A DNA stretch of 64,000 nucleotides from Paramacrobiotus metropolitanus (lineage: Eukaryota > Tardigrada > Eutardigrada > Parachela > Macrobiotidae): assembly GCF_019649055.1 (NCBI RefSeq), contig NW_026570318.1, forward strand, positions 434,001-498,000, read 5' to 3'. Below are positions 19,720-60,321 of this stretch, in pieces. The position numbers and the translations under genes are program-made. Positions within the stretch are counted from its first letter, which is position 1. Each line of letters begins with the position of its first letter. The notes below the pieces were generated by a model, which worked only from the letters and a program-made list of their open reading frames with translations, was not told the DNA's origin and ran no database searches.

Positions 19720-20084
19720 CGGAAGCAAAATTAGTCCAAACATGGACAGTAGCGGTTTAAGCCTCTAGTTACTCCCTTATTAATTTCAAACCTACCATAT
19801 TTATTTGCAATGGAAGCTGGCATTTGGTCGCACTAGTTGATCCCACTTCCAGCGTCGTCTCGATGAGTTGTTCTGTAAAAGCTTGTGGTGTGGAGTTTTG
19901 TAAATATAGGGCAATTTAGTACGTCAAAATTTTGTATTTAGAAAAGTTGTACGAACCCGGATTGCACGTACGACGATCGTACAATATCATATTATATCAA
20001 GTACGACATGCAAAAATATCTTTACTTTCGCGCCTCATGTTAAAGTCGCTTACACAATGCCGGGATTGTGTGAAGTACTTTATG
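19720..20084. other. Intergenic, nothing recognised
   Basis: 3' flank of the secreted glycoprotein gene; presumably includes its poly(A) region. No other feature seen. Confidence 0.4.
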
Positions 20085-30830: not shown

Positions 30831-31424
30831 GGTGAGTTGCATCAGCAGCCCCACCTGCACGCGGCTACTTAACTTTCAATTAGTTTGTAGATTTGCAGCA
30901 ACCAGTCAGTTTTTATGATTTCCGTGTCTGCTTTTTTGGCAATCCAAAAATTTAGCTGGATGAGAATTCTACCGATTATTTGACCATACAAAAGCTTGCC
31001 GTCGCGAAATTCTGCCTGCGCTACAACTGCCAGAGCGCCGTTGAAGCAAAACACTTAGCATACGAGTACTTTACCAATACGCTGAGTTACAGAGCAGTGC
31101 ACGTAGTGATGTACTCTTGTTGGATCATTTGGATCAATTGGATGTATTTCCATGACAACTGCCGTAGCTTACACTGTAAACTCAGCAGTCCGCACCAAGT
31201 GTCAAAATACAGGGAGCCTAAAAAATACCGAATACTTCCAGAATCCAGATATTATTATTATTATGTGTTGGTTTCACAAAGGGGTACACTCCTTCGGCGG
31301 TGATCATAAGTAGTACTGATGGGCTTATGAACGCATTGAAGTTTTTTGTACCATAATTCAATTAATTTATTCATAATTTCAATTAATTTATTCTTCTTTA
31401 ATTAACGGTGAAGCGGCACCCTAT

Positions 31425-31712
31425 CATTTCGGCCACCATTCATTTCGGCTATCATAGATTTGGTTACCGCGTTCGAATTTTAGCTTACAGTAACATGTAG
31501 TCAATGTCTCTGCTGTAAGGCTAGCCAAGGTACTCAAGCAATGAGCATTAAAAAAAATTTTGGAAACCTAAGATTACCTAAGAATAACCAAAGAAACAAG
31601 ATAACCTGAAAAACCTAAGAATAGCTGAATAACCTAAGAAACCTGAGAAACCTAAGAAAATCAAACGCGGTAACCGGATCTATGATAGCCGAAATGAATG
31701 GTAGCCGAAATG
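31425..31712. mobile_element. MITE with ~49-bp inverted repeats
   Basis: Arms 31425-31473 and 31664-31712 (CATTCATTTCGGCTATCATA and complement). The interior is a short AACCTAAGA-type tandem repeat. Non-coding. Confidence 0.85.
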
Positions 31713-31887
31713 AATGGACACGGATGAGGCACGTATAAAGCCAGCTCAGCTACGCTAAGTTCGGAACAATTGTGAATTGAATTAATAAGCATTTCGATGC
31801 GTCGTTTCGTGTTGCGTTTTGCAGCTTCCGGTGCAACTTTTTATGGGCAATTCAGTACGAAAATCGAAAATGTGTTATGTCAGTTAG

Positions 31888-34375: not shown

Positions 34376-35011
34376 CTTTATAAGGTGAATGAAGTAGCAC
34401 CACGGAGTCTGGAGTAGGGAAAATAATATGTACAGGTACAGTATGTTGCTAGATACGTCCGACAGTAGGAATCCAGCGGTCAGCCCAGCTTGTTGGCCGA
34501 GCGAAGCGAGGCCTTCTATACTCAGCTGGCCAAAAAGTCGAGTGTTTGTGTGTGTGTGTGTGTGTACACGATAACTTTCGAAGGATTTGTGCAATCCTTC
34601 TCAAATTTTGCATGATGATAGTATGACCCAAAACTGAGGTCGAGTTCGTTAATTAGCCAGATGTGACCGGAAATAGAGAAGATTGGGGACTCTGCAGTTA
34701 ACATAGCGGTCTACGGAGAATGAACTGTTGCAATCGGCTTACCACGAGCTTATGGTTACCCGATTGGAGCAATTTCTATAGCCATACATTTGCAGTACTT
34801 CAGGTCTTAATTTGTTGAAACCAAGAATGCTTTTTGCCTTGAGCTTGCTAATCGGGATTGCTAGTGTTTTTTTATTGTTGAGTACACGGAACATTAAGTA
34901 AAGTATGAAGAAAACATAATTCTTTGAACTATTGTCATAAGGTACTTCTGTATACGTGGCATCCGCCAGGCAGCGTCTTTCTTGCAGAACTGATTTAGAC
35001 AAATACCCCTT
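34376..35011. other. Flank of the LTR element; GT microsatellite
   Basis: 34547-34564 is a TG microsatellite followed by a stretch (ATAACTTTCGAAGGATTTG) that looks like a piece of a dispersed repeat. No gene. The last five bases, 35007-35011 (CCCTT), are the target duplication of the retroelement. Confidence 0.5.
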
Positions 35012-35288
35012 GCAGGGATGACGGTACGAGTTGTACGATACAACTCTGTACTACGTCACCACAGGTGTGCAGAGCCAGCCAGGTGGATATGTGGCCAGCG
35101 TGGTGTTGTGTTCTTTTAGTGTGTGAATATGCACAGTCTCGACTGGCATATTTTTCTCTTCCCTTTTGTGCCCTTTCCTCCGCAATGTATTGCATTCACT
35201 TATGAATAAAATTCCCATTTTATTCACGTGTGTTGTCTCATATTCATTCGTCATCCGGGATACGAGGATAAACCTCGTATTCCCTATA
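35012..35288 (+). repeat. 5' LTR
   Basis: 277 bp, no difference seen from the 3' LTR. Contains an AATAAA poly(A) signal near 35205 and, close to its end (about 35257-35285), a strong hairpin GGGATACGAGG-ATAAA-CCTCGTATTCCC (one bulge) with a five-base loop. Antisense open frames present in both LTRs are by-products. Confidence 0.95.
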
Positions 35289-35306
35289 TGGTAGCAGATC
35301 TGTGAA
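35289..35306 (+). other. Primer binding site
   Basis: TGGTAGCAGATCTGTG begins directly after the 5' LTR; TGG pairs with the CCA end of a tRNA. The tRNA cannot be named by eye. It partly overlaps a hairpin AGATCT-GTGAA-AGATCT. Confidence 0.6.
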
Positions 35307-35936
35307 AGATCTCGTCTCTAGAAGAGCCTCGATCTGTGCTGTTTACAGCGCAGACTAGAATCATATCTTTGGATCCCATCCTTGATCGGACGGATCCATA
35401 TTCCTGCGGATATTTGGGCACCATCAATTCTTCACTGACGAACAGTGGAAAGGGAGGAATCAACTCCAGAAGAAAATCAACCTCACGACGCGAACAGTTC
35501 ACGGAATAACGCTGCTGAACGTCCGACATTTCTGTGTACGAAACACGCTGTGTCACAGGGACAACAGTGAACCGTGTATGCGCGCCGTATCTTTTAAGGA
35601 AACGAATCCAGCAGTTGCCAAACGATCAAAGAATTGTTTCTAGAATTACTTCTGACGAACAGAAATCTTTACGAATAAATACGAAAAATTCCTGACCTTT
35701 TCAGATAAATTCTACGATAGAATTTCCTGGTTACGTACCTGGAATTTTGGTAGCTGTTAACTGTCTGTCTGTGGTAAGTGCACAGTAGCTAGATTATTAT
35801 CAGCCTAGCACGATAACAAAAGAAGCGGATATATCCGCATACAAAAAAATATTGCTACTGCAATAAAGCCGTGCCTTTCTGCCTGCTCATTGACCTGTAG
35901 AATTAAATATACTTGTATACTGTAATACGAAATACG

Positions 35937-37925
35937 ATGTCTGGGAGATACGGAATTCTTAACGGACTGAAAAGCATTTTCCCGTTCGGAACACGTGATA
36001 ACATGGAGGAAACTATGTTTATGTACGCTGATCGACCAAACCCTCGTCAACCGTCAACTGCTACTGGCGCTACGACGCGCCAGCAGACAAAGAAATTGGG
36101 AGCTGCTAAAAAGTCGAAAAACGACGATAAGACTGAGGAATCGTCCAGTGATGACGACACATCATCGCAGACGACTGCGAGGAGAATTTTCCTAGGACGA
36201 AAGCACCCAGCAGACAACATGGAAATTCCACCGGAATTCCCGCTGGGAGACGGCAGCGATAACGAACGAGGAGATTCTCCCTGGAATGGAGATCAACTCG
36301 ACACGACTATGATCGAGGCGAATGAAGACAATCTGAAAGACATCATTGAAAATGTTGAAAACGAAATACCGATAATCGGCGAAGAAAACCATAAAACAAA
36401 AAAACCGGAAAAAGAGCTGGACGAACCAGCAACGGAAAAATCAGCGATGGAAGATTCACAAAATACAACCACCGATACTCACGAAGAGGAAGCCATGGAC
36501 AAAGAAGCCGCCGATATGACTGAAGCGGAATTACGAGACGCATTTTACCAAGTCGTCCAACGAAATACGCACCTCCGAGGAGAACTGTCCCAATTAAATG
36601 AACATTACGAAGAGACGTTGGAACGCCTTGAAGAACTGGAGAAAAATCATGAAGCCATGGAAACAGAGTTTGACGAAAAACATAAGGAGAACGCGAATAA
36701 CGAACAAAAGAATAAAACATTAACTGCTGAAAATGAACGTTATAAGAAAGTCATTTTCAAAATGGACCAGCTACGAAAGCTGGATAAAAGCAAACACGTA
36801 GCCGAAATGGAAAAATTACGCAAAGAATTCGCTAAATCGTTGAAGGAAAAACGTCACGAAGACGCGAAGGCACCGGCCAAACAGGTCAAAACAACGGAAA
36901 AATTTGGATATTTTAAAATGGAGCGCCGTGACGCGGTTGGCAGAAAATCACCTTTCGAGAAGCCACGTGAAACGCGAGAGGTTTTGTACACCAGAGATCA
37001 AGTGGATCAGACAGTGGAGAACGCGCAGTATACCGCTTACGAGCAAGGATATCAGGAGGCAGTGGAACAAATGCAGGAAGAAAATTTCCGCTTAAATGCA
37101 ACAATTCGAGATCTGACGAACAGATCGTTGCAAGCCCGTTCCACAGCACCTCCACCTCCCCCAAGACGCCCACCACCTGTCAACACAGCACCAGTTACAG
37201 TTCCTTTACCACCGGGAACGATGCCCGTTAAGGACGTTACGGAATTAATTAAAGCGGCGCGCGCCCCGATTCCAATTACGAAATATAATGGAAACCGGGA
37301 GGAGATTGACAGTTTTATTATAAAGTTTCGCCGTGCTGTAGTGCAAAATGCCTGGGATGAAGCCACAGCTGTAACGCAGCTAGGAGCGGCATTGACCGGC
37401 GAGGCACAGCAGTGGTATAATCTGACGATCAGATCGCAGCCACACCTGGATAATATTGAAGCCTGGTTAACGCTCTTGACTGAGCGCTTTACTGATAAGA
37501 ATCGGGCTACGACAGCCTTGAATGAGCTGACAACACGTGTCTGGCAAGCCGGAAAAGAAGACATTGACACCTATTATCAGAAAATGGTATCTTTACGCGA
37601 TATGGCCGGTATGATCGGATCGGATAAACAACTCTGCACATTCCTTACGAAAGGAATAAGGGATTATCCGCAACTACACATGGCCTTGAAAATTAAAGAT
37701 CCGAAAACGCCAACGGAATGGCTTTCGTATGTCAGAAGTATTATTTCGGACGATCCGAAATATGTAAACGGAACTGACAAAAAGACTGCAACAGTTAGTT
37801 TGGTAACCGTCGACGGAGAAAGCTACGCCGTAATTAACGCAGCAACAGCTGACGACAAAGAGGAACCGTGGAAAACGGTTACGAGAAAAAAAGTGGAATG
37901 GCAACGGAGGAAGCCCAAACGGTGA
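35937..37925 (+). CDS. gag: Gag polyprotein (matrix-like, coiled coil, capsid)
   Basis: The structural protein of the retroelement. The ATG at 35937 (MSGRYGILNG) is the first good start after the LTR leader. About 662 residues: an acidic, low-complexity N-terminal third; a long coiled coil (ELRGE... through EKHKENANNEQKNKTLTAEN and KMDQLRKL, about 36530-36870); a proline-rich linker (PPPPPRRPPPVN near 37150); and a retrotransposon gag capsid domain (about 37290-37740) with FIIKFRRAVVQ, LTGEAQQWYNL and TYYQKMVSLRDM. The stop at 37925 comes just before an open frame that encodes the zinc knuckle, one base out of register. The break falls in the seven-A run near 37890, so it may be a one-base sequence error or a mutation. 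Confidence 0.9.
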   Translation: MSGRYGILNGLKSIFPFGTRDNMEETMFMYADRPNPRQPSTATGATTRQQTKKLGAAKKSKNDDKTEESSSDDDTSSQTTARRIFLGRKHPADNMEIPPEFPLGDGSDNERGDSPWNGDQLDTTMIEANEDNLKDIIENVENEIPIIGEENHKTKKPEKELDEPATEKSAMEDSQNTTTDTHEEEAMDKEAADMTEAELRDAFYQVVQRNTHLRGELSQLNEHYEETLERLEELEKNHEAMETEFDEKHKENANNEQKNKTLTAENERYKKVIFKMDQLRKLDKSKHVAEMEKLRKEFAKSLKEKRHEDAKAPAKQVKTTEKFGYFKMERRDAVGRKSPFEKPRETREVLYTRDQVDQTVENAQYTAYEQGYQEAVEQMQEENFRLNATIRDLTNRSLQARSTAPPPPPRRPPPVNTAPVTVPLPPGTMPVKDVTELIKAARAPIPITKYNGNREEIDSFIIKFRRAVVQNAWDEATAVTQLGAALTGEAQQWYNLTIRSQPHLDNIEAWLTLLTERFTDKNRATTALNELTTRVWQAGKEDIDTYYQKMVSLRDMAGMIGSDKQLCTFLTKGIRDYPQLHMALKIKDPKTPTEWLSYVRSIISDDPKYVNGTDKKTATVSLVTVDGESYAVINAATADDKEEPWKTVTRKKVEWQRRKPKR

Positions 37926-38454
37926 CGACAGCCGTAAATCCCCCACGCCATCATCCTCACCGCCGAAAGGGAAATTTAATCGTCCTTGGAACGGAAATCG
38001 AAAATTTAATAACGGCGGTGGAAATAACAATAATAACGGCAACTACGCTCGCAACTCCTTCTATTGCGATAATTGTGAGATAAAGGGTCACGAAACCCGG
38101 CGTTGCCGATTTGCTGGAGTCGCGAAAATCGACAACCCTACGTTCTGCAATAACCATCCCGAAATGGAGTTATTCTACATGAAAACTCATCCGGAACACC
38201 AGCGAGCAGCAGCAGTAATTGCGCGCCACGCAGCCGGAGCCGATAATGCGGACTCGAACGGCGGAAACCGGGGGAATTTCCGTGGTGGCAGAGGACGGAG
38301 TGGATTTCGCGGCGGCGGATACCGCGGAGGAAACCGTGGGAACGGCAGATATAATAATAATCAGGGAGGACGAACCTTCACTGATTTAAACGGTAATCCT
38401 GTACCGCAAGATGCCGCAGCTGGTAATTTAAACCCGCAAGGGAACGGCCAGTAA
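37926..38454 (+). CDS. Gag C-terminus: nucleocapsid with CCHC zinc knuckle and RGG-like tail
   Basis: Frame +1 relative to upstream gag. Starts in a basic Ser/Pro linker, then a zinc knuckle FYCDNCEIKGHETRRCRF with exact C-x2-C-x4-H-x4-C spacing (about 38063-38105), then a Gly/Arg/Asn-rich stretch (FRGGRGRSGFRGGGYRGGN) typical of RNA-binding nucleocapsids, ending in a stop at 38452-38454. Binds genomic RNA and would be the natural reader of RNA packaging hairpins. The slippery site TTTAAAC lies 18 bases before its stop. Confidence 0.85.
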
Positions 38455-38474
38455 ATCCCGGCTACGCTGTTCCC
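38427..38474 (+). promoter_or_regulatory. Programmed -1 ribosomal frameshift signal
   Basis: TTTAAAC at 38427-38433 is a canonical X-XXY-YYZ heptamer and lies in the right phase: the nucleocapsid frame reads T TTA AAC. Slipping back one base enters the protease frame, which is open from there. After a 7-base spacer a stem GGGAAC (38441-38446) / GTTCCC (38469-38474) follows. Heptamer, phase, spacer and stem all fit. Confidence 0.8.
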
Positions 38475-39200
38475 GTACCTCCGAAACCGCCGGATAAAAA
38501 TATGCACACGGATTTTAAGGCGACGAACGCCGAAGGAATAAGTATTCACGGATTCACCGTGAACCGCCCTCCACAGAAATACGCCGAAGTAAATTTATTA
38601 ACGGCATTAAATCAACCGGAGATTGCACCGGTGCTGACGCACAGCATTCAAGTAGGAGGAATTCCAGTGGACGCAATGATTGACACTGGAGCGGAGACGT
38701 CCTTAATTTCGCAACAATTTTGCGAATTAAATAAATTGGAGACGTATAAATTAAAGACGCCACTTTCCATACGCGGAATAGGCGGTATACATAATTTCCC
38801 CGTGCAATACGCTTGCACAGTGCCCGTCTCCATGGACGAAATAATGACTGGCCATTGCTTCTACGTGAAGCCAACGCAGGATGCCGTTAAAGTCCTCCTT
38901 GGACAGGATTTTCTGCGGAAGATAAAAATTGTGATAAGTGGAAGTCGCATTGTGGTGACAGAATGGATTCCACCTAACGAAAGAGGGCCAGTGAAGAACG
39001 CTGCCACGAGTGCAAATGTGGATGCGTACGAAACGCAAAATAATACGGCAGTAGAGATAGTGTCATCTCTCCCTACCGGTGGCACCGGTCGAAAGATAAA
39101 ACTACCGAAGAAAATCGATGTCTGCGAACCGGACTACGCAATAAATACGTGTGATCGAGATGTCACCAGAAGAGCTGAAAGAAATGCAGGAAGAATATGA
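38427..39200 (+). CDS. pol: Retropepsin (aspartic protease) region of pol
   Basis: Entered by -1 frameshifting from the nucleocapsid frame; no initiation codon is needed. The catalytic motif is DTGAETSLIS (about 38684) in VDAMIDTGAETSLISQQF, followed by the second family motif LLGQDFL (about 38898). It works as a dimer and cleaves the Gag and Gag-Pol polyproteins in the particle. The frame stops at 39200, after which pol is broken by several one-base shifts. Confidence 0.9.
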   Translation, partial: FKPARERPVNPGYAVPVPPKPPDKNMHTDFKATNAEGISIHGFTVNRPPQKYAEVNLLTALNQPEIAPVLTHSIQVGGIPVDAMIDTGAETSLISQQFCELNKLETYKLKTPLSIRGIGGIHNFPVQYACTVPVSMDEIMTGHCFYVKPTQDAVKVLLGQDFLRKIKIVISGSRIVVTEWIPPNERGPVKNAATSANVDAYETQNNTAVEIVSSLPTGGTGRKIKLPKKIDVCEPDYAINTCDRDVTRRAERNAGRI

Positions 39201-40048
39201 TGTGAACGCGGTGGAAAAAGAGCTTACGAAAGCTGCAACGGTGATTAAAGGGCAAACGAGCCAAAGGCACGCGTTAAATTATTAAAAGTCTACGCGACTG
39301 ACGACTTCAACGTGGACCCTGGATACACGTGGATATCGGCAATGCCAAAGAAATACGATATCGTACGAAACGAACCGTACATTTTCTCGCCGAATCCCGC
39401 TATATTCTCTGCAACGCAGATGACCCCAGTACAAGGACTGGTGAAGCCGGAAAACCGGATAATCGATATATTTATGACCAATTTCAAGATAAGCGGCAGA
39501 TTGTACGCAAAGGCACTTGGCTTGGAATTTTGAAACGTATGAAGAAATACAGGACGAACCTGTAGTTTCCACTGTAAAAGTAACGCCAATGACTGCCGAT
39601 GAGAAGAAAGAAATGGATGAAAATATCGCCGCGATGCATTTCGGTCCACAAATTGATGAAGAGAAAAGAAAACTGGTGCGGAATTGTTTACCGAATTTCG
39701 GGATGTATTTCCATCGAAAAGCCGTCCATACGGGACAGTGACAGACAGTTGCAAAGCACCATATTGATACAGGTGACGCTAAACCTGTGAAGTGCCCGCC
39801 ACACCGTACGAGCTGGAAGGAAAAGAATATATTTCTGAGCACGTGAAGGACATGTTAGCGAAAGGCGTCATACGACCATCAAAGTCTGCATGGAGTTTTC
39901 CAGTGGTACTAGCGATTAAACATAACGCTGATGGACATCGTCTAGCCGGTTGGCAGAATACGAGATTCTGTGTCAATTATATTCGCCTTAATAATGTCAC
40001 GCGCAAAAACAACTATCCCTTCCAAATCCAGATGAATTACTGGGAGCC
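39201..40048 (+). pseudogene. Linker and N-terminal RT region, frame broken several times
   Basis: Pieces of a pol linker and the RT fingers can be read in turn from all three frames: MTPVQGLVKPENRIIDIF, KGTWLG, NFETYEEIQDEPVVSTVKV, FRDVFPSKSRPYGTVTDSC, KAPY, KDMLAKGVIRPSKSAWSF, FCVNYIRLNNVTRKNNYPF. At least five one-base shifts within 850 bp, while the following 1.9 kb has none. In an element with identical LTRs this density suggests poor consensus sequence here, though real decay cannot be excluded. Confidence 0.7.
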
Positions 40049-41974
40049 GTGGCCGGCAACGCTCTTTTCTTCACCTTTGACTGTCACCAAGGATTTTGGC
40101 AAATTCCTATGGACGAAGAATCGATACAAAAGACAGCTTTCATAACGCAGGATGGACTTTACGAATTTACGAGAATGCCTTTCGGCGTCTGTAATGGTCC
40201 TGCGACCTTCCAAGCTGCAATGGATACTACGATACAACCATTAAAGGCGATGGGATTAGAAGGAATTTTCGCATTTTTAGACGATCTAATATGCGCCTGC
40301 AAAGACTTGATGGATGGCATAATGAAACTACGAGCACTATTTGAATGTTTACGTAAATCTGGCTTTACGCTAAAGCCATCGAAATGCCATATCGCCAAGG
40401 AGGAACTTCATTTCCTCGGTCATATCGTATCGAGGGAAGGAATTAAAGTGGATCCGGAGAAGATTAACGCGATTAACGCAAGGAAAAAGCCGACTGACGA
40501 AAAGTCGCTACGTTCTTTCCTCGGATTCGCGAATTATTACCGGAAATTTATCCACCATTACGCGAATAAAACGCGTAATTTATACGATTTACTGAAAGGC
40601 GGAAAAGACGTCAAGGCCGATTGGAACGAGAAGCACGACGAAGAGTTTGAACGACTCAAACATCTTCTCACCAACGCGCCAATTTTAGTAAAATTTGATC
40701 CGGAAAAACCCGTGGTTATAGAATGCGACGCTAGCTACGTAGGAATTGGAGCGATACTCAGTCAGGATGGAAAACCGGTGGCTTACGCAAGCCGTGTGTT
40801 GAAAGACGCTGAGAAGAAATACGCACCTACGGAGCTGGAGTGTCTTGCGGTCGTATTCGCTGTAAATAAATTTAGACATTATGTTGATTACAGTGAATTT
40901 ACGGTCAAAACGGACCATCAAGCGTTGGCAAATCTCTTACGATCAACGTCGAAACGGGATGGAATTAATCCGCGACTTACACGCTGGGCAATTGCTCTGG
41001 GACGATACCAGATAAAAATTGCATATCGCCCTGGAAAAGCGAACGATAACGCGGATGATTTAAGCCGAAATCCCATCGGACAACCATCACCAGACGAGAA
41101 TCTGGATGAACTGCCAACATTCGACGCGTATAAAGACGAAGGGATGAAATTAAATGATTATGAGCGGTCAACAGCACGAATAAATGTGATTACGCTGGAC
41201 GACCCAGCTGATCACGATGCGGATACCGAAGAAGACAATTTTATGTTCTTACGAAAAGAACAGGAAAAGGATCCCGTAATTTTAAAGAAAATTCTAAAGC
41301 TGGAAAACCGCGATGCGACGAAGCCGTTGCCGAAAGATTATGACACATACGAAATGTGGCATAAAGTACTGTATAAAATATCGGAACGAGATGCACAAAA
41401 ATACCGTCGATTCATCGTTCCACGTCACATGAGAGGAGATATTTTACGTGCCATGCATGATTCCCCTTCAAGCGGACATCTTGGAAGAAAGAAAACGTAT
41501 AAGGCGATAGAAGTACGATACTTCTGGAACGGCATGACGCAGGACGTCATCGATTACTGTGACAGCTGCAAAAGATGCCAGATGCGGAAAATTCTTGGAA
41601 AATTACCGCCAGGAAAACTACAAGAAGTGAAAGTCGGTGAACCATTCTTCAAAATTCAAATGGACTTAAAAGGCCCGTTGCCGATTACGCGGAAGAACAA
41701 AAACCGATACATCGCCGTGGCCATCGATCACCTAACAAAGTTCGTGATAGCAGACGCGCTGCCCAATATAAAAGCTTCAACAGTCGCTGATTTCTTCGTG
41801 AAACGAGTGATACTGCCATATGGAGCACCAAGGATAGTCGATACGGACAGAGGAAGACAATTTACGAGTAAACTCTTTGAAAGGATTACGAAAATCTTAA
41901 AAATCGAACGACACCTTGGATGCGCATACCACCCGGAAGGACGCGGTTTGTTGAGCGGCAGATGCGTAGTATAG
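40049..41974 (+). CDS. pol: Pol: reverse transcriptase, RNase H, integrase N-part
   Basis: Uninterrupted frame of about 640 codons; not a true start, as it continues RT from upstream. RT: FDCHQGFWQIPM, MPFGVCNGPATFQ and the active site FAFLDDL near 40277 (a FLDD variant of YxDD). RNase H: IECDASYVGIGA near 40720 and KTDHQAL near 40910. Integrase: a zinc-binding HHCC region (MHDSPSSGHLG ... YCDSCKRCQ, about 41453-41580), then the core with MDLKGPLPI (first D) near 41660 and DTDRGRQFTS (second D) near 41840. The frame breaks after AYHPE near 41940; the last catalytic glutamate lies in the next frame. Copies the genomic RNA and inserts the DNA. Confidence 0.95.
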   Translation: MAGNALFFTFDCHQGFWQIPMDEESIQKTAFITQDGLYEFTRMPFGVCNGPATFQAAMDTTIQPLKAMGLEGIFAFLDDLICACKDLMDGIMKLRALFECLRKSGFTLKPSKCHIAKEELHFLGHIVSREGIKVDPEKINAINARKKPTDEKSLRSFLGFANYYRKFIHHYANKTRNLYDLLKGGKDVKADWNEKHDEEFERLKHLLTNAPILVKFDPEKPVVIECDASYVGIGAILSQDGKPVAYASRVLKDAEKKYAPTELECLAVVFAVNKFRHYVDYSEFTVKTDHQALANLLRSTSKRDGINPRLTRWAIALGRYQIKIAYRPGKANDNADDLSRNPIGQPSPDENLDELPTFDAYKDEGMKLNDYERSTARINVITLDDPADHDADTEEDNFMFLRKEQEKDPVILKKILKLENRDATKPLPKDYDTYEMWHKVLYKISERDAQKYRRFIVPRHMRGDILRAMHDSPSSGHLGRKKTYKAIEVRYFWNGMTQDVIDYCDSCKRCQMRKILGKLPPGKLQEVKVGEPFFKIQMDLKGPLPITRKNKNRYIAVAIDHLTKFVIADALPNIKASTVADFFVKRVILPYGAPRIVDTDRGRQFTSKLFERITKILKIERHLGCAYHPEGRGLLSGRCVV

Positions 41975-42777
41975 CAGATTCACTCGCGATGTACGTGCGG
42001 AGAGGACATGTACGAAATTGGGACCAGTTTCTTCCATTTGTAGTCTCGGCACGAAACCGAGTACCGCATAAAACGACGAAGATGTCTCCGTTTCGAATGC
42101 TGTACGCCAGGGAACAAGTAATTCCAGAAGATATCGTTACGCAAACGAATCTTCCCGTCGACTACGAGTCAGTAGATGATTACGTAAAAGCGACAGCAGA
42201 TCACCTCGCACGTGCACACGAAATAGCGGAAATATTTATTGAAGAAGAATTCCAAAAGAAAGCGGAATTATATAACCGACGAAAGTCTACGCCTACGTTC
42301 AATATCGGTGATCTCGTATGGATAAAGCAAAATCAAAAGAAGAAAGACGAAGTAGATACGCTACGAAAGCAGTATCTGGGACCATACGAAATTTTAAAAT
42401 TCCCATACGGAAACACGGTCACAGTAAAATGCCAAAAAGACGGAAAAATAATGGACGTGGCAGTTGACCGATTTAAGCCATACATATCACCGGACATCGA
42501 ACTGCGGAAAATTCCCAAATTAAGAATCAAGTTGCCAATTAAACCAGCGGAATCAGATACTCGTGACGAACACGGGTGGGAAAATGTCGAAGACGAAACT
42601 CCAAGTGTTACGATAACACCGCAACAGCAAGGCATTCCCATACCGCAGGCAACGGATAAAATACAGGAATCCACGCCTGGGCATAGTAGCGATAAATCAC
42701 ACGAAGTGATGAACGCCATCGACACCGTGCCGGATAAACCAGCTGAATTATCGACGGGCCTAAACGAAAAGCCCTAA
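41940..42777 (+). CDS. Pol: integrase C-part with GPY motif
   Basis: Continues integrase after a one-base shift. It begins with FVERQMRSIADSL, whose E is the expected third residue of the D,D-35-E triad, and includes the C-terminal GPY/F module (GDLVWIKQNQ ... LGPYEILKF, about 42310-42400), which binds DNA. No chromodomain follows; the tail is Pro/Thr/Ser-rich and ends in a stop at 42777. Confidence 0.9.
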
Positions 42778-43003
42778 CGAAATGTTGACAGCACCTCTGA
42801 ATACGAATTTAGAGGATGAGCATGAAAATCAGCTGAAACGCAGAATTTTACGCCCTAGAAAAATGATTAATTATTCCAAATTACATAAAACGGGCAGAAC
42901 GGCACGAGTTAATTTTTTGAATATTTTCTATCGATAATTACCGAGAAATAATTACGCGGACTAGTTGGGATTATTTTATGTTATTTTTGTCGTCCAGAAT
43001 AAC
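42778..43003 (+). other. Spacer between pol and the 3' ORFs
   Basis: AT-rich, stops in all frames. Could hold a splice acceptor for a subgenomic RNA of the downstream ORFs, as for env genes, but no site can be singled out. Confidence 0.4.
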
Positions 43004-44236
43004 ATGGATCGAGACCAGAATCAGGATCAGCGACCTGTCCCGATTCCATCACGAGGACGCGGATCAAGACGGGGACGACCCCCAATGAATCGTGGAGGAT
43101 ATTTTAATCTACCACCACGTGGTCCTTACATCTACGATCCCCGAAACGCAGCACAGGAAATTCAAGTGCCGATACGACTCCCGAATGTCTCGCTGACGCA
43201 CCAGCAAAACCCATATCAGCAGGGAGGCGGCACGGTGACAGTTCCTTTAACACCAGTTATTGTGCTGCAGGAAACACCTCCAGTGACACACGCGCAACGA
43301 ACGCAACGACAGTGGATTACTTCGCAACGAAGCGTACCAAGGCCGATTTATACGATTGCCGTCACATCTGCAACGAATACGACCACAACAACTACGGCTA
43401 CTTCTACATCTATGGCTACGCGTCCAGCGTCAGTGTCACGTCAATCAAGTGGAGAAACTGTCCAGATTATGGCTGATTTACGCGCAGAGAATCCACGAGA
43501 CCGTATACGAATTACCGGCCCACTTAATACTGACGAACAGTATCGCCGGCAAATCATGGAAGAATTACGCGCGGAATTAAACGCCCAGATGCGACAGCCA
43601 GGACAGATAGAAGCGTTTATCGAACAATCAGACGATCCAATGAACGAATCAATTACACTCCGTATTCCTACGAAAGGAATGAATCGCCGTCGAAAAGTGA
43701 CAGAGGAAAAGTCTACGCAGACTAAAATTCAGAAATTGGATGAAGTGATGCAGTCTCGACAGTCAGAAATTCCTTCGGAACTGTCTTCAGTCCCTGTTTC
43801 ACGCGCATCGACACCAGCACGATCTGAATCCCGCAGCCGACATGCCGACGAACGGCAGTACGACATTCCACAAATTAGCCAGGCGATTGTTGCCATTAAG
43901 GAGTGCATTGAAACAGTCAAGAAACGAAAGCGTAAGCCTTCTCTGGCTTATTTGAAAGAGCAGTATCGCCAATGGGAAAAAGATATTCATAATCGTAAAG
44001 CGGATATGAAATTATTCAAGTACGCACTGGAACAAGGAGTGCAGCGTGGAACGATTTTGGAAACATATAACGACTGGCAGACTGATGCAGCTTATGTGAA
44101 TCCAGAGTCACTGCAACGTGGTCACGAAGACTACACGATGGACACACCGCACAGAATTGAAGAGGCAATTATAAAGGCGTTAAAGAAATTCGAAATCCAA
44201 AGGGATCCACCTACGACGAAATTTTACGACATTTAA
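43004..44236 (+). CDS. Extra ORF 3a with linker-histone-like (H15) segments
   Basis: ATG at 43004 (MDRDQNQDQRPV). About 410 residues. The N-terminus is RGR/RGG-rich (SRGRGSRRGRPPMNRGGY), followed by long Thr/Ser/Gln-rich disorder. Near 43858-44110 there is a helical segment, ISQAIVAIKECIETVKKRK, SLAYLKEQYRQWEKD, LFKYALEQGVQRGTIL, which follows the linker-histone globular pattern: I-x3-I start, S-L-x2-L-K second helix, then K-x-ALE-x-GV-x-RG-x-L. A second such segment starts at 44138 (HRIEEAIIKALKKF) and breaks frame: after one shift it reads NPKGSTYDEILRHLNAVF, after another NVRRAVDALVEQHLTEVL. No signal peptide or membrane helix, so it is not an env. Possibly a DNA- or chromatin-binding accessory protein; function is inferred only. 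Confidence 0.65.
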   Translation: MDRDQNQDQRPVPIPSRGRGSRRGRPPMNRGGYFNLPPRGPYIYDPRNAAQEIQVPIRLPNVSLTHQQNPYQQGGGTVTVPLTPVIVLQETPPVTHAQRTQRQWITSQRSVPRPIYTIAVTSATNTTTTTTATSTSMATRPASVSRQSSGETVQIMADLRAENPRDRIRITGPLNTDEQYRRQIMEELRAELNAQMRQPGQIEAFIEQSDDPMNESITLRIPTKGMNRRRKVTEEKSTQTKIQKLDEVMQSRQSEIPSELSSVPVSRASTPARSESRSRHADERQYDIPQISQAIVAIKECIETVKKRKRKPSLAYLKEQYRQWEKDIHNRKADMKLFKYALEQGVQRGTILETYNDWQTDAAYVNPESLQRGHEDYTMDTPHRIEEAIIKALKKFEIQRDPPTTKFYDI

Positions 44237-44239
44237 ACG

Positions 44240-44770
44240 CCGTTTTCCAGTACCTGCAGTAGACTGGATTCAACACCAGCATAATGTTCGTCGAGCAGTG
44301 GATGCCCTGGTTGAACAACATTTGACGGAAGTTTTACGCCAGAGAAATGATCCAGAGCCACGTTATGCTTTAATGGCATCACGCAGACAACGATTGTCTG
44401 GCCTGACTGGAACACCGGCGAATAAAATTCCAAAATCACCATACGGTCCAGATGTACGCCCAGCACCTACGACGCATAAGCGATATTCTAACGCAGTGAT
44501 GGAACCAAAACGCCGTTACGATACGACATCATCTGGCGAAGGGAATACATCTGTAGTTTTATTGGATGAACCACAGTCTGAACCGCGACGAAGTGAAAGA
44601 ATTAGCCAGCGTACGCAACGCTCGGCCCGGCTGACACAGACAGCACCGGAACCACTTCCGGAACATCCAGACCACCAGTCGCGAGGAAAGCAAACCGTCG
44701 AACAAACCCGCACGCTCCCTTGTCTCCCGCAAGTTCACGTAGTGCAGCACTTTCAGTGGATGCACCGGTA
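44240..44770 (+). CDS. Extra ORF 3b, continuation in another frame
   Basis: Continues the second H15-like segment (RRAVDALVEQHLTEVLRQRN, ending RYAL near 44368), then a basic, Ser/Thr/Pro/Arg-rich linker (SERISQRTQRSARLTQT). About 44720 the meaningful frame moves on by one base. Together with the neighbours this is probably one protein of about 740 residues interrupted by indels. Confidence 0.55.
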
Positions 44771-45235
44771 TTTATCTCTATGGATAATATTACGCAGGCG
44801 ATACGAATCGTCGAAAATACGCAAAGCCGACCTACAGTCATTAGAATTTGGGAGGCAATACGTGCACAGCCGGGTATGACTGGAATTACGCGAGAAAGAA
44901 TTCAAGAAGAACTGGAAATGCATGCCACAAATGCACGGCTCGTAGAACGATACTACGGCAGCTGGGAAGCAGTTTATCAGCAACCGTGCAGCATTACGAA
45001 TCGAATAAATGCAGACTTTGAAAATCCCTTCTTTTGGACGGAGGCTGTTAATCACGCCATCAGAGACATTCGTCACCCTAATGGATCAACAATCCGAGAG
45101 ATTTTTAATTATTTACGAATATATATCATCAATGGATTGCCAAATAACGCTGAAAATCAAATCGAAAATACAGTAGCAGATGAACTGGATTATGAAGAAG
45201 ACGATGGCCGATATAAGACAGTTGGAAGGAAGTAG
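44720..45235 (+). CDS. Extra ORF 3c with two further H15-like segments
   Basis: Segment three (about 44780-44990): NITQAIRIVENTQSRPTV, IRIWEAIRAQ, RIQEELEMHA, VERYYGSW. Segment four (about 45030-45235): WTEAVNHAIRDIRHPNGSTI, REIFNYLRIYI, ENQIENTVADEL, GRYKTVGRK. The fourth matches the linker-histone order well: a start helix A-x3-AI, a G-S-T/S turn, x-EIFNYL helix, then a third helix and a short strand ending in a basic tail. The following 45236-45345 contains a tandem duplication of about 70 bp (RKRYDWLTNSL twice). Confidence 0.6.
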   Translation: MSPASSRSAALSVDAPVFISMDNITQAIRIVENTQSRPTVIRIWEAIRAQPGMTGITRERIQEELEMHATNARLVERYYGSWEAVYQQPCSITNRINADFENPFFWTEAVNHAIRDIRHPNGSTIREIFNYLRIYIINGLPNNAENQIENTVADELDYEEDDGRYKTVGRK

Positions 45236-45491
45236 ACAAAGAAAACGCTACGATTGGCTGACGAACAGTCTGATCTGTCTATTACGCCCACTTGAAAGAA
45301 TTATACGAAGAAAACGCTATGATTGGCTGACGAACAGCCTGCAGTTGTCTACCACGCCTCCGAATTTCATGAGTGAACGAGATGAGACGCACGTGCTAGC
45401 TGAACGGCAAAAACCGCATGCAAACCAGTCCTTCATCTGCATAGCCGGCAGACAGTGAATATTTTTGAATTTTTTTTCACGTACCGGTAAA

Positions 45492-46550
45492 ATGGAGTAT
45501 AAAATTGAAAAGTTCCACGAAAACTGTGAGCGATGTCAGAAGAACGCCGAACGTCCATGCGTACGTCATTTGTTGTCCGGATTGACGGAACCGCAGAAGG
45601 TAGCAGAACTCTTCTACGAAGCCATTCTGGGTAATGTAGCCGCGTACCTGGAGTTTATCCGCCCGGAGTACTGGGAGAGTCCGCACAACAACGAGAATTT
45701 CCGCGAACGAGTCATCGTGGAAACGCATATGCGCATTCGACGGAAGGAGGAACGCTGGAGGGATATCGAACGCCCACCATCACAGCCAGCTGAAAAGCCG
45801 AACGCAGGTACGCTGCCAGTTGTTAATCTGGCTCAGTTCACGAAATCTACGCAGGAACCTTCAGCCCCACGACACCCATCACTCGATAAACGAGTGGAGA
45901 ACATGCCGGCGCTGATGAAACGCATCACCGAAACGGAGCCAGTCATCCAGGATGTCACAGCTACATTCCGTGGATGGGGACGAACCCGAGAACCCGTCAT
46001 CTATAACGAGCAGATCGCCAACAAACCGATCTTGAAGAAGTTCTCATCGGTACCGAACGTCTTCTTGGACCCGAAACTGCAACCTCCTACGAAGGAGAAG
46101 GACGATTCATGTGACGAACACATGAACCCGCGCATTTTACAACATCCAACTATGATGGGTATTCACTTCGGATACAGCACTATTACGACTCAAGCGGAAC
46201 GGTTGCAGAAAGCTTTGAATCTGCGGAATGCTGACGATGTAACAGAGACGGCCCTGAAAAGGATGGTGTTGAATTTCCATTCCTTTTATCAGAAATCGGA
46301 ATTGGACAAAGTCGTGCAGGAACAGAATACTCCAGGCTTGAAATTTTCCCGGAAAGAAGCTACGAAAGCCACTCGGGACGAGGCAGTCGCGCTGCGGATC
46401 GGGATGATCGTGACGAACACGATTATTATGATGAAGATGATTACGAAAATCAGCAGCGACGCCGCAACCGCCAAATTGGACGATACGACCCGAAGCGCTA
46501 AACTGACGAGTGGCACTGCTGAAATGGGAATAATTGGAATTTTGTGTTAA
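45492..46550 (+). CDS. Extra ORF 4, unknown
   Basis: ATG at 45492 (MEYKIEKFHENCERCQ). About 350 residues, no signal peptide, no membrane helix. The N-terminus has C-x2-C and a third cysteine (ENCERCQKNAERPCVRH), which could bind a metal. A helical region follows (AELFYEAILGNVAAYLEFI), then proline-rich disorder and another helical part (MVLNFHSFYQKSELDKVV). Near 46395 the likely true frame changes by one base and ends in an acidic then arginine-rich tail (DDRDEHDYYDEDDYENQ then RRRRNRQIGRY), stop at about 46501. Not recognised; accessory protein of the retroelement. Confidence 0.6.
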   Translation: MEYKIEKFHENCERCQKNAERPCVRHLLSGLTEPQKVAELFYEAILGNVAAYLEFIRPEYWESPHNNENFRERVIVETHMRIRRKEERWRDIERPPSQPAEKPNAGTLPVVNLAQFTKSTQEPSAPRHPSLDKRVENMPALMKRITETEPVIQDVTATFRGWGRTREPVIYNEQIANKPILKKFSSVPNVFLDPKLQPPTKEKDDSCDEHMNPRILQHPTMMGIHFGYSTITTQAERLQKALNLRNADDVTETALKRMVLNFHSFYQKSELDKVVQEQNTPGLKFSRKEATKATRDEAVALRIGMIVTNTIIMMKMITKISSDAATAKLDDTTRSAKLTSGTAEMGIIGILC

Positions 46551-46812
46551 TAAATTTGTGTTAATTTTTTTTTCAAATGTTGATCTAACCAAAGAATTTG
46601 ACAGTTTATTATTTCCTAAATAATTGTGATGGAAATGATCTTGATAAATTTGCTCATTCTAATGATGCTCATTTTGTACGGAATGAAATCTCTTTATTTC
46701 ATGAAATTTGTGTTAATTTTTATTGATACGCTGGCCAGAGACGATACGGACGGATATGGATGCTGACGAACAGCATTGTCTCGCAGGAGCTCGAGTCCCT
46801 TTCCGGTGGCAT

Positions 46813-47089
46813 GCAGGGATGACGGTACGAGTTGTACGATACAACTCTGTACTACGTCACCACAGGTGTGCAGAGCCAGCCAGGTGGATATGTGGCCAGC
46901 GTGGTGTTGTGTTCTTTTAGTGTGTGAATATGCACAGTCTCGACTGGCATATTTTTCTCTTCCCTTTTGTGCCCTTTCCTCCGCAATGTATTGCATTCAC
47001 TTATGAATAAAATTCCCATTTTATTCACGTGTGTTGTCTCATATTCATTCGTCATCCGGGATACGAGGATAAACCTCGTATTCCCTATA
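46813..47089 (+). repeat. 3' LTR
   Basis: 277 bp, no difference seen from the 5' LTR. The preceding polypurine tract is weak (GCAGGAG near 46780). Followed by the target duplication CCCTT. Confidence 0.95.
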
Positions 47090-58692: not shown

Positions 58693-59606
58693 ATGATGCT
58701 AAACGTAACCAACGTAACGATTGTGAACGTGACCAGCTCGATCATGCAGCGAAAATCTCTGCTTGCTATTGCCCGTTCGGAACTTATGGCGTTTCTTGTT
58801 GTGAGCTTAGTCGTTTGTATCATCGGTTTTGTGCTTTTTGCCTTCTTCTCGTGGTCCTCATCCGGCAACCGTCTCTCTTCGAGGGCTCGCGCTACCTCAT
58901 CTTGAATCAGGCCATCGCGGAGATACAGCAGATTGGTTTCCATCTGCCGGCTCTCACTATCGGCCTTTACGTAGACGAAGCTGGCAGCCACTCTGTGCTC
59001 TCCAGCAGAGCGTTTTGTCTGCATCAGGCCTTTTTCTTTCTGGTGGTGATGGTTGTGTCCATGTGGGGCCTGTTCGGATTGGCCTTGAACCGTTTCCTAG
59101 CCGTCCGGACAACGTCGTTACAACAGTACAAGCGCTGGACATCCAAGCAGTTCCAACTCACCCAGATCGTGATAATCTGGTTGATTGCGATTTTATGCCA
59201 TATCTACATGTACATCCAACCGGATCTGGTTATGCCAATGGACCTCGCGTCAGGGCCAAAGTGTAATACAAGGCCCAGTGTACAGTTTACGCTGAAACAG
59301 ATATTTGGGACGTACGTCCCACTAGGGCTCACTGGAGTACTGTATTTGGTAATTGCCTTCCTGCTGCTGAAACAGCGGATAAAGAAACATGTGGTGACGG
59401 ATGCCGTTGTAATCGTACAGGAGAGAAATTTCGGGAGACACCGAATCCGGTTGGCCAAAATTCTGTTCATCAACGCCACGGTGCACACCGCGGCCTTCCT
59501 TATCTTCCCGGTGCTGAAGACCGTACGTGGTGTGAGTGCCAGCGCGGATCCTTTGCTGCCGCTCTGGTTCCGCTTAGTATTTCATGCCGGTCAGATGGCA
59601 ACACCG
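58693..59606 (+). CDS. Rhodopsin-like G-protein coupled receptor, 3' exon not found
   Basis: ATG at 58693; the N-terminus MMLNVTNVTIVNVTSS has three N-glycosylation sites. TM1 is ELMAFLVVSLVVCIIGFVLF; a one-base shift near 58840, at GTTTTGTGCTTTTTG, is needed to continue into LLLVVLIRQPSLF. TM2 contains YLILNQAIAEI. TM3 ends with LFGLALNRFLAVR, where NRF stands for the usual DRY. TM4 is IVIIWLIAILCHIYMYI, TM5 YVPLGLTGVLYLVIAFLLL, TM6 ILFINATVHTAAFLIFPVL. TM7 begins PLWFRLVFHAGQMATP and is cut by a GTAAGT donor after 59606 (phase 0). The exon with the NPxxY region was not identified downstream. Ligand unknown. Confidence 0.7.
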
Positions 59607-60321
59607 GTAAGTGGTTGGAGAGTGTTGCTAACCTAATAATTCGCTAAAAAACTAAGTCTACCATCTGCTCTCAGTGATTCTGGGCTAAATGGTAGCGTCA
59701 GCCGCGCGACAGATAAGGTCTTTTTGTTATGCAACAAAATGCCGACCGACGGAATTGCGCGTTGATGCGCCGTTACTTGCAAGAATAGTGGCGCATGTGG
59801 TGCAAGAATTGTTTTCTGAATATTTCCATTTGTTTGTCGCATTGTAAAGGGTGCGCACTGCGCAGGCGGTAGCTCAGCCCGTGGAGGAGCGTGCAGAAGA
59901 CAGATCTTCTTCGAAATCATGCAGCACGTGAAAGATTGCACTTTTCTTCTTTGGGCTTTTTGATTATTTCCACCTTTACTTAGATTTCTCGGATTAGTAT
60001 TTCCAATTTCAAGTTACTGAAATTTTTCTCGCACTTTTTTAAACGTACAAACGCCTGCAGATATGGTACGAGTACGCGAAGCAACCCCGCGAGGTAGAGT
60101 TGCGGCATCGTAACTGCGAGTAGATCTGCTTCCAATCTGAGACCCACCCAAAAGATGAAAAGTGTTGCAACCCAAAAGTGAACCTTTACTTTTGAAACTA
60201 AACTGATTCTCCAGAAATTCAGACTGATTAATGGTCTGCTAGCTGACCTGTAAAGAATAGGTGATCTGTTGGTACCAAAGCAATTGTACAAGTACAAGTA
60301 CAACGGGAGAAGTACAAGTAT
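59607..60321. other. GPCR intron or intergenic
   Basis: Starts with the GPCR donor GTAAGT. No exon with a plausible seventh helix found. A 102-codon frame on the minus strand (59633-59941) looks like chance. Confidence 0.4.

Follow-up and report, generated by a model that had tools for sequence, protein, structure and literature searches.

The element and its hairpins

Within a 64,000-nucleotide (nt) stretch of the Paramacrobiotus metropolitanus genome (contig NW_026570318.1, positions 434,001 to 498,000; the whole stretch is called the window below, and coordinates refer to it) lies a Ty3/gypsy long terminal repeat (LTR) retrotransposon that carries dozens of short hairpins sharing one loop word, ACGAN, while differing in their stems. 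The assignment to Ty3/gypsy is based on the presence of LTRs and on the order protease, reverse transcriptase (RT), RNase H and integrase, which is that of the superfamily; in a protein search with the RT-integrase part, identity was 31-43% among the matches listed (120 of 1048). Two further open reading frames (ORFs), ORF2 and ORF3, are positioned downstream of the integrase, and several reading frames of the window copy are interrupted relative to other copies. The parts of the element are as follows:

35011..47089, + strand: Ty3/gypsy LTR retrotransposon, 12.1 kb, with identical terminal repeats, protease, RT, RNase H and integrase domains, and CCCT flanking it on each side (read from the flanking DNA)
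35011..35288, + strand: 5' LTR, 278 bp, 100% identical to the 3' LTR, with one ACGAT hairpin
35289..35308, + strand: probable transfer RNA primer site, judged from its sequence, which starts with TGG at the LTR junction
35913..37925, + strand: Gag reading frame, with no Pfam match; other families have Gag frames related to it
37834..38454, + strand: nucleocapsid part of Gag, with a CCHC knuckle (CDNCEIKGHETRRC) and a Gly/Arg-rich stretch
38502..39200, + strand: aspartyl protease, by domain match
40049..41974, + strand: RT, RNase H and integrase, by domain match
41920..42777, + strand: C-terminal part of the integrase, with a weak Pfam match
42965..44236, + strand: ORF2 (part), an unbroken frame of 757 amino acids in copies C32 and C341
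45492..46550, + strand: ORF3, a candidate for reading the hairpin array, with a Cys finger (CERCQKNAERPCVRH)
46812..47089, + strand: 3' LTR, 278 bp, with the same ACGAT hairpin as the 5' LTR

We define a hairpin as a perfect Watson-Crick stem flanking a loop word, with a stem of at least 4 bp as the main threshold, and by "outside" we mean window DNA beyond the element (35-47 kb). Perfect-stem scans of ACGAA and ACGAN loops returned these hairpins, all on the + strand:

35028..35046: GAGTTGT-ACGAT-ACAACTC (5' LTR)
35433..35447: CACTG-ACGAA-CAGTG
35534..35546: GTGT-ACGAA-ACAC
35650..35664: TTCTG-ACGAA-CAGAA
35707..35725: AAATTCT-ACGAT-AGAATTT
36416..36430: GCTGG-ACGAA-CCAGC
36767..36783: CCAGCT-ACGAA-AGCTGG
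36852..36864: CGTC-ACGAA-GACG
37110..37126: GATCTG-ACGAA-CAGATC
37420..37434: ATCTG-ACGAT-CAGAT
37505..37517: GGCT-ACGAC-AGCC
37742..37762: TATTTCGG-ACGAT-CCGAAATA
38519..38531: GGCG-ACGAA-CGCC
39023..39037: TGCGT-ACGAA-ACGCA
39361..39373: TCGT-ACGAA-ACGA
39548..39564: TACAGG-ACGAA-CCTGTA
39954..39970: CAGAAT-ACGAG-ATTCTG
40277..40289: TTAG-ACGAT-CTAA
40645..40661: GTTTGA-ACGAC-TCAAAC
41194..41208: GCTGG-ACGAC-CCAGC
41244..41262: TGTTCTT-ACGAA-AAGAACA
41344..41358: CACAT-ACGAA-ATGTG
41509..41525: AGAAGT-ACGAT-ACTTCT
41884..41896: GATT-ACGAA-AATC
42562..42574: CGTG-ACGAA-CACG
42605..42619: GTGTT-ACGAT-AACAC
42696..42710: ATCAC-ACGAA-GTGAT
43071..43083: GGGG-ACGAC-CCCC
43527..43543: ATACTG-ACGAA-CAGTAT (kept in relative C127)
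43664..43680: ATTCCT-ACGAA-AGGAAT (broken in C127)
43843..43857: TGCCG-ACGAA-CGGCA
44384..44400: CAGACA-ACGAT-TGTCTG
45325..45339: GGCTG-ACGAA-CAGCC (kept in C127)
46106..46126: TTCATGTG-ACGAA-CACATGAA (compensatory A-U to G-C change in C127)
46407..46423: ATCGTG-ACGAA-CACGAT
46438..46452: TGATT-ACGAA-AATCA
46760..46776: ATGCTG-ACGAA-CAGCAT
46829..46847: GAGTTGT-ACGAT-ACAACTC (3' LTR)

Chance, codon choice and strand

ACGAA is found 84 times in the 35-47 kb interval, compared with 50 times elsewhere in the window. Within the element 24 of the 84 are enclosed by a stem of at least 4 bp, whereas outside none of the 50 is, and four have a stem of 3. In 500 dinucleotide shuffles of the internal region (35289-46811) the mean number of ACGAA hairpins was 0.17 and the maximum 2, and for ACGAC, ACGAG and ACGAT taken together, where 12 of 89 sites form hairpins, the shuffles gave a mean of 0.28 and a maximum of 3. 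When only the ORF parts were considered, ACGAA hairpins occurred at 17 of 66 sites as against a mean of 1.13 and a maximum of 4 in 300 synonymous-codon shuffles, and the hairpins in ORFs occupy all three frames (10, 10 and 7). Chance or codon choice as the cause of the array is thus ruled out by the two kinds of shuffle, as an earlier reading of the sequence alone, made without database searches, had claimed on both counts; the first outcome that it named as refuting, similar counts with the codons kept, did not occur.

With the loop widened to ACGAN, stems of at least 4 bp are present at 38 of 179 sites in the element, LTRs included (24 with A, nine with T, four with C and one with G in the last position), and are closed mainly by G-C (18) or T-A (16), with two C-G and two A-T closing pairs. 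When every loop word of 3-9 nt in the element was examined for stems of at least 5 bp, ACGAA came first among 5-nt loops (18/84), followed by ACGAT (8/36), ATAAA (3/40) and ACGCA (3/36); the triloop CGA (9/328) is largely ACGAT restated. RNAfold, run on 55-nt segments round each pentamer, folded 27 of the 84 ACGAA as an exact 5-nt hairpin loop, whereas seven comparison pentamers gave 0 or 1 each; the other members of the loop class gave 3/29 (ACGAC), 0/28 (ACGAG) and 0/35 (ACGAT), the last probably because ACGAT closes as a triloop instead.

The array is strongly one-stranded. ACGAA occurs in the element 84 times in sense and seven times in antisense, and hairpins of ACGAN with stems of at least 4 bp number 38 in sense versus one in antisense (1/32 ACGAN). 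Host blocks of 11-12 kb show less asymmetry even in their most biased words (AACTA 57 vs 23, AAAAA 103 vs 43). Strand bias and pairing together point to a single-stranded nucleic acid; orientation alone is no proof of RNA, because the DNA motifs bound by VANC proteins (see below) are also arrayed in one orientation.

These counts modify several details of the sequence-only reading. Its figure of at least 28 ACGAA hairpins is reached if 3-bp stems are counted (32/84) and not with stems of at least 4 bp. All six stem pairs that it quoted are present in the element, and its leader and tail hairpins at 35433, 35650 and 46760 are recovered, while the one it put at 35533 shifts to 35534 by perfect pairs. 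It described a single loop, ACGAA, which is indeed the commonest, but 14 of the 38 hairpins have T, C or G in the last position; similarly, the thinning that it noted at 39.6-41.2 kb holds for ACGAA and is filled in by ACGAG, ACGAT and ACGAC hairpins at 39954, 40277, 40645 and 41194. Host DNA, where it saw none, is free of ACGAA hairpins at the 4-bp threshold but has two with ACGAT, at 19968 and 56698.

A known RNA family as the identity of the array is ruled out by an Rfam search, which gave 0 matches in the window at the gathering threshold. Tandem repeats are likewise ruled out as its source, with 0 tandem arrays in the window element; short ones only were found, in two pieces of other families. 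At 45225-45341 a 48-nt unit, including its hairpin, is duplicated with a spacing of 69 nt and 88% identity.

Conservation of stems in related copies

Four close copies, with 97-100% identity over RT-integrase, exist in the same genome. With the window element as reference, stems of at least 5 bp show 1/278, 2/300 and 0/276 substitutions in copies C28, C341 and C21, respectively, against 5.6, 5.1 and 2.6% elsewhere, and loops show 0/130 in C341 and 0/120 in C21. The protein code does not account for this: among third codon positions that fall within stems (here of 4 bp or more), 0/88 are changed in C28, 0/96 in C341 and 0/89 in C21, compared with 300/2723 (11.0%), 263/2756 (9.5%) and 105/2669 (3.9%) elsewhere (p = 7e-5, 2e-4 and 0.048). 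The stems are thus under selection beyond the protein code.

The sequence-only reading had inferred an RNA structure signal from stems that vary while pairing is kept, and proposed to look for covariation. That the stems are kept in related copies agrees with such a signal; variation among the stems of a single element does not amount to covariation. Among ten stem-pair changes in the four close copies (a fourth copy being included here) five retain pairing as G-U, the other five disrupt the pair and none is two-sided. C127, a relative at greater distance (86% identity over 1169 columns and 94% over 281 columns, 1.5 kb being readable), covers six window hairpins with stems of at least 4 bp, of which three are kept (45325, 46106 and 43527), one is broken (43664) and two (46407 and 46438) fall in an alignment gap; at 46106 a double change from A-U to G-C has occurred within a stem of 10 pairs. 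The evidence for true covariation is thin. Overall, the results support an array that is real and selected, and that constitutes a structure signal at the level of a single strand, not a product of chance or codon choice.

Different words in other Ty3/gypsy families

Over-represented words were scored in 30 RT loci of the genome (4.5-4.9 kb each), and the loci were placed on a tree. Clade A (five loci) has the word ACGAA. In clade E, AGCCGA occurs 26-31 times where about 1.0 is expected (antisense 0-2, in 6/6 loci), and in clade D it is AACCGA, 17-19 times versus about 1.4 (antisense 1-3, in 4/4 loci). Clade F has CCGCTT (13 vs 0.6 expected, antisense 0, in 2/2 loci), locus L006 has ATCGAA (22 vs 1.9, antisense 6) and L027 has ACGAT (39 vs 5.6 expected). 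The C64 family (piece L052) has AGCCAG 27 times in 3.0 kb against 0.7 expected, with none in antisense and with an ORF3 finger downstream. In the 3.0 kb read of each of the L053 and L054 families no such word was found. Counted in two halves of about 7 kb, GCCGA reaches 123 copies in C79 and 127 in C82, ACCGA 91 in C6 and TCGAA 116 in C17. The words are distributed along the element and, in C79 and C82, cease close to its end; every frame is used, though not equally (39, 31 and 9 in C79).

Hairpin presentation of the word in these families is ruled out: at most two copies per word lie in a loop of the word's own length with a stem of at least 4 bp (C82, C79, C6, C17, L027, L028, L029 and L052), and pairing profiles round the word are flat in C79, C82, C6 and C17. 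Nor was any fixed distance from word to hairpin seen in the other families. Several other Ty3/gypsy families carry a different distributed, sense-biased word without a hairpin; such words in related families, which were out of sight of the sequence-only reading, are a new finding here. Short perfect hairpins whose loops are mixed outnumber those in shuffles several-fold in C13 and C63 (clade C), C79 and C82 (E) and C6 (D) (pieces L041-L050), but by little in C17.

Clades D and E are sisters (support 98/95 and 98/97, inner branches about 0.025 each) with 76-81% DNA identity over RT, and the change of word between them can be followed site by site. The well-aligned parts of C82 contain 76 GCCGA sites; the counterpart in C6 is ACCGA at 17 of them, GCCGA at 16 and another sequence at 43. 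Among sites with a conserved CCGA, G in C82 corresponds to A in C6 at 17/32, compared with 90/500 in other contexts (p = 2e-5), and the reverse comparison gives 17/34 versus 90/668 (p = 1e-6). Beside CCG followed by another base the switch is seen at 9/19 sites, so the context of the switch may be CCG.

Candidate readers

A finger of the form C-x2-C-x7/8-C-x2-C/H is present in ORF3 of the window family, C17, C63, C82 and C6, and in that of C64, the AGCCAG family, it reads CKACHYNTERRPCMDH; the residue preceding the second Cys is Arg in the former five and Ala in C64. Genome searches gave 51 ORF3 matches with the clade-C query C63 and 23 with the window ORF3, three of them 4-5 kb downstream of the integrase matches C64, C117 and C1:1964735. 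Near the L053 and L054 loci no ORF3 match was found, a weak negative given that the window family, too, escaped the C63 query. In C79 the C-terminal part of ORF3 is matched once, weakly (28.7%). In copy C28 (L034:4455-6998) the C-terminal part of ORF3 is tandemly repeated inside one long open frame, and two further ORF3 relatives, at C21:894309 and C29:341586 (36-38% identity to the window ORF3), possibly belong to families near that of the window.

Between C6 and C82, whose words differ, two parts of ORF3 are 45% and 49% identical, while the surroundings of the Gag knuckle are identical at 58 of 64 residues, with one change inside the knuckle. A conserved knuckle alongside a diverging ORF3 points to ORF3 rather than to the knuckle as the candidate reader, as a correlation drawn from a single pair of clades. 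In 50-column windows of the Gag alignment of C6 and C82, identity runs at 34-59% up to column 500 and at 51-90% beyond it.

Possible meaning of the words

The means by which Ty3/gypsy elements single out the genomic RNA that belongs to them are poorly defined, even in yeast Ty3, whose packaging sequences are described as imprecisely defined, with both untranslated regions and POL being needed; that description, of an element of the same superfamily, mentions no repeated loop motif (PMC11381356). A limited literature search (titles and the beginnings of abstracts) found no array of this kind in an LTR element.

We think that the array is probably a distributed RNA address code in the genomic RNA, bound by a protein that the element encodes. 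Every ACGAN loop would serve as one binding site of low information, ACGAA being its best form; the stems here measure 4-8 bp, most of them with G-C or U-A as the closing pair. Dozens of such loops along the RNA would jointly mark it as self. The protein reading the word would most likely be ORF3, with Gag as second candidate. Many bound copies might then coat the genomic RNA, leading to its nuclear export and/or packaging, and the coat might keep it apart from RNAs of sister families. An element-encoded reader of a family-specific word is the simplest explanation that takes in the window hairpins together with the words of the other families.

A precedent of sorts is the Caenorhabditis elegans element Cer1, likewise an animal Ty3/gypsy element, whose protein CERV is described as required for export of the genomic RNA, as surrounding fibrils taken to be that RNA, and as needing a Cys loop and Arg194 for export (PMC10309623). 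The essential Cys loop of CERV may be set beside the Cys finger of ORF3. The likeness, drawn by description, has its limits: CERV overlaps gag and is spliced, whereas ORF3 lies downstream of the integrase. On the Rossmann-like G domain of the CERV type, the C6 ORF3 model, helical in its confident parts but poor overall, says little either way. A term search of the Cer1 paper gave no RNA hairpin or repeat motif (PMC10309623).

A wider proposal would be that families carry private RNA words, repeated from dozens to more than 100 times over coding and non-coding RNA and read by a fast-evolving element-encoded finger protein, that word and reader change together when families split, preventing cross-export or cross-packaging, and that the window family moved its word into hairpin loops. 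This we hold tentatively, at somewhat short of even chances. If it were so, the AACCGA and AGCCGA sister clades would be a natural experiment in the co-evolution of reader and target, with about a hundred sites. A dense and countable word of this kind, specific to its family, is of practical use: it identifies the site, lets one predict between which families cross-reaction should occur, and leads to a candidate protein. Counting strand-asymmetric words family by family is feasible in any genome.

Several observations weigh against an RNA code read by ORF3. Wobble pairs do not decide the strand (10 GU vs 7 AC), and two words are only partly one-stranded (TCGAA 116 vs 52 antisense in C17, ACGAT 39 vs 9 in L027). 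Two-sided compensatory changes amount to one, in a copy that also has a broken hairpin, and the loop is not clearly conserved in C28, where 6/120 loop positions are changed against 5.6% elsewhere; in a separate count 4/43 third codon positions and 5/44 non-coding positions of C28 loops are changed, about the local background. Clade F, with its strong word, has no ORF3 search match near either locus and no finger in ORFs of at least 80 amino acids in the 3.5 kb downstream of the integrase at one locus, so ORF3 may not accompany every word; conversely, clade C (11 loci) has ORF3 (C63) with only a weak word, CCGTA, at 9-20 per locus, and in C79 and C13 the word or hairpins are present where no ORF3 frame was found. 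The N-terminal half of Gag diverges too and could hold the reader. Finally, the AlphaFold model of C6 ORF3 is poor overall, with a mean pLDDT (predicted local distance difference test) of 50.5. Its confident parts are limited to about 21-100, 481-500 and 561-650, each of them helical, and a Foldseek search with it gave nothing below E 2.

Among the alternatives, the one that survives best is that the hairpins are dispersed packaging signals, stem-loops with one loop motif that are contacted by the nucleocapsid or capsid of Gag during assembly. The sequence-only reading had listed a packaging signal read by Gag or nucleocapsid among the roles; it is possible, if in our view unlikely. The architecture is the same as that proposed for small RNA viruses and hepatitis B virus, with many stem-loops spread genome-wide, varied stems and one loop motif, which in hepatitis B virus is given as -RGAG- (PMC7612645), and Gag here has its CCHC knuckle and Gly/Arg-rich stretch. 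Against this, the knuckle differs by one residue between the AACCGA and AGCCGA families, and in the other families tested the word stands outside hairpin loops; unlike those viral signals, this is an LTR retrotransposon system with a separate word per clade.

An anti-silencing system like that of VANC in the Arabidopsis VANDAL elements, where an element protein recognizes a short DNA motif private to its family of elements and releases them from silencing, is improbable. It would account for dense short motifs in one orientation that differ between relatives, as reported for VANC21 and VANC6 (PMC5735166). The VANC target as described there is, however, double-stranded DNA, with motifs mainly in non-coding tandem repeats, whereas here a single-strand signal runs through coding sequence in all frames and the window element has no tandem array. 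Moreover, the stems are selected, and they are unneeded for binding of double-stranded DNA.

A host RNA-binding protein might also read the loops, being exploited by the element or controlling it, an explanation that we regard as quite improbable. Animals do have loop-specific hairpin binders, but related families in the same host have different words, which a single host factor fails to explain. Least of all do we credit mutation or composition bias, or duplicated hairpin units, as a source of the array as a by-product: the elements are A-rich, short hairpins without a shared loop are in excess in most families read and the duplication at 45225-45341 holds two copies of a hairpin, but shuffles keeping dinucleotides or codons fail to reproduce the array, the stem sequences differ with few repeats, and the stems are conserved at third codon positions.

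Host DNA around the element

At 58815-59636 there is an ORF for a rhodopsin-type seven-transmembrane receptor, a sign of an animal host, with no relatives at E <= 0.001 among 2548 candidates. Searches of the host for the SL1 splice leader, allowing up to one mismatch, and for COX1 gave no match; Rfam SL1 was likewise blank, as was its control. Host repeats with 80-93% identity flank the element on both sides (30830-31061/49197-49428, 34062-34208/50391-50537, 31202-31255/49555-49608 and 34262-34316/50595-50649), which may mean that it landed in a region of other repeats. An inverted repeat at 31424-31713 has 57-nt arms that are 91% complementary and lie 176 nt apart.

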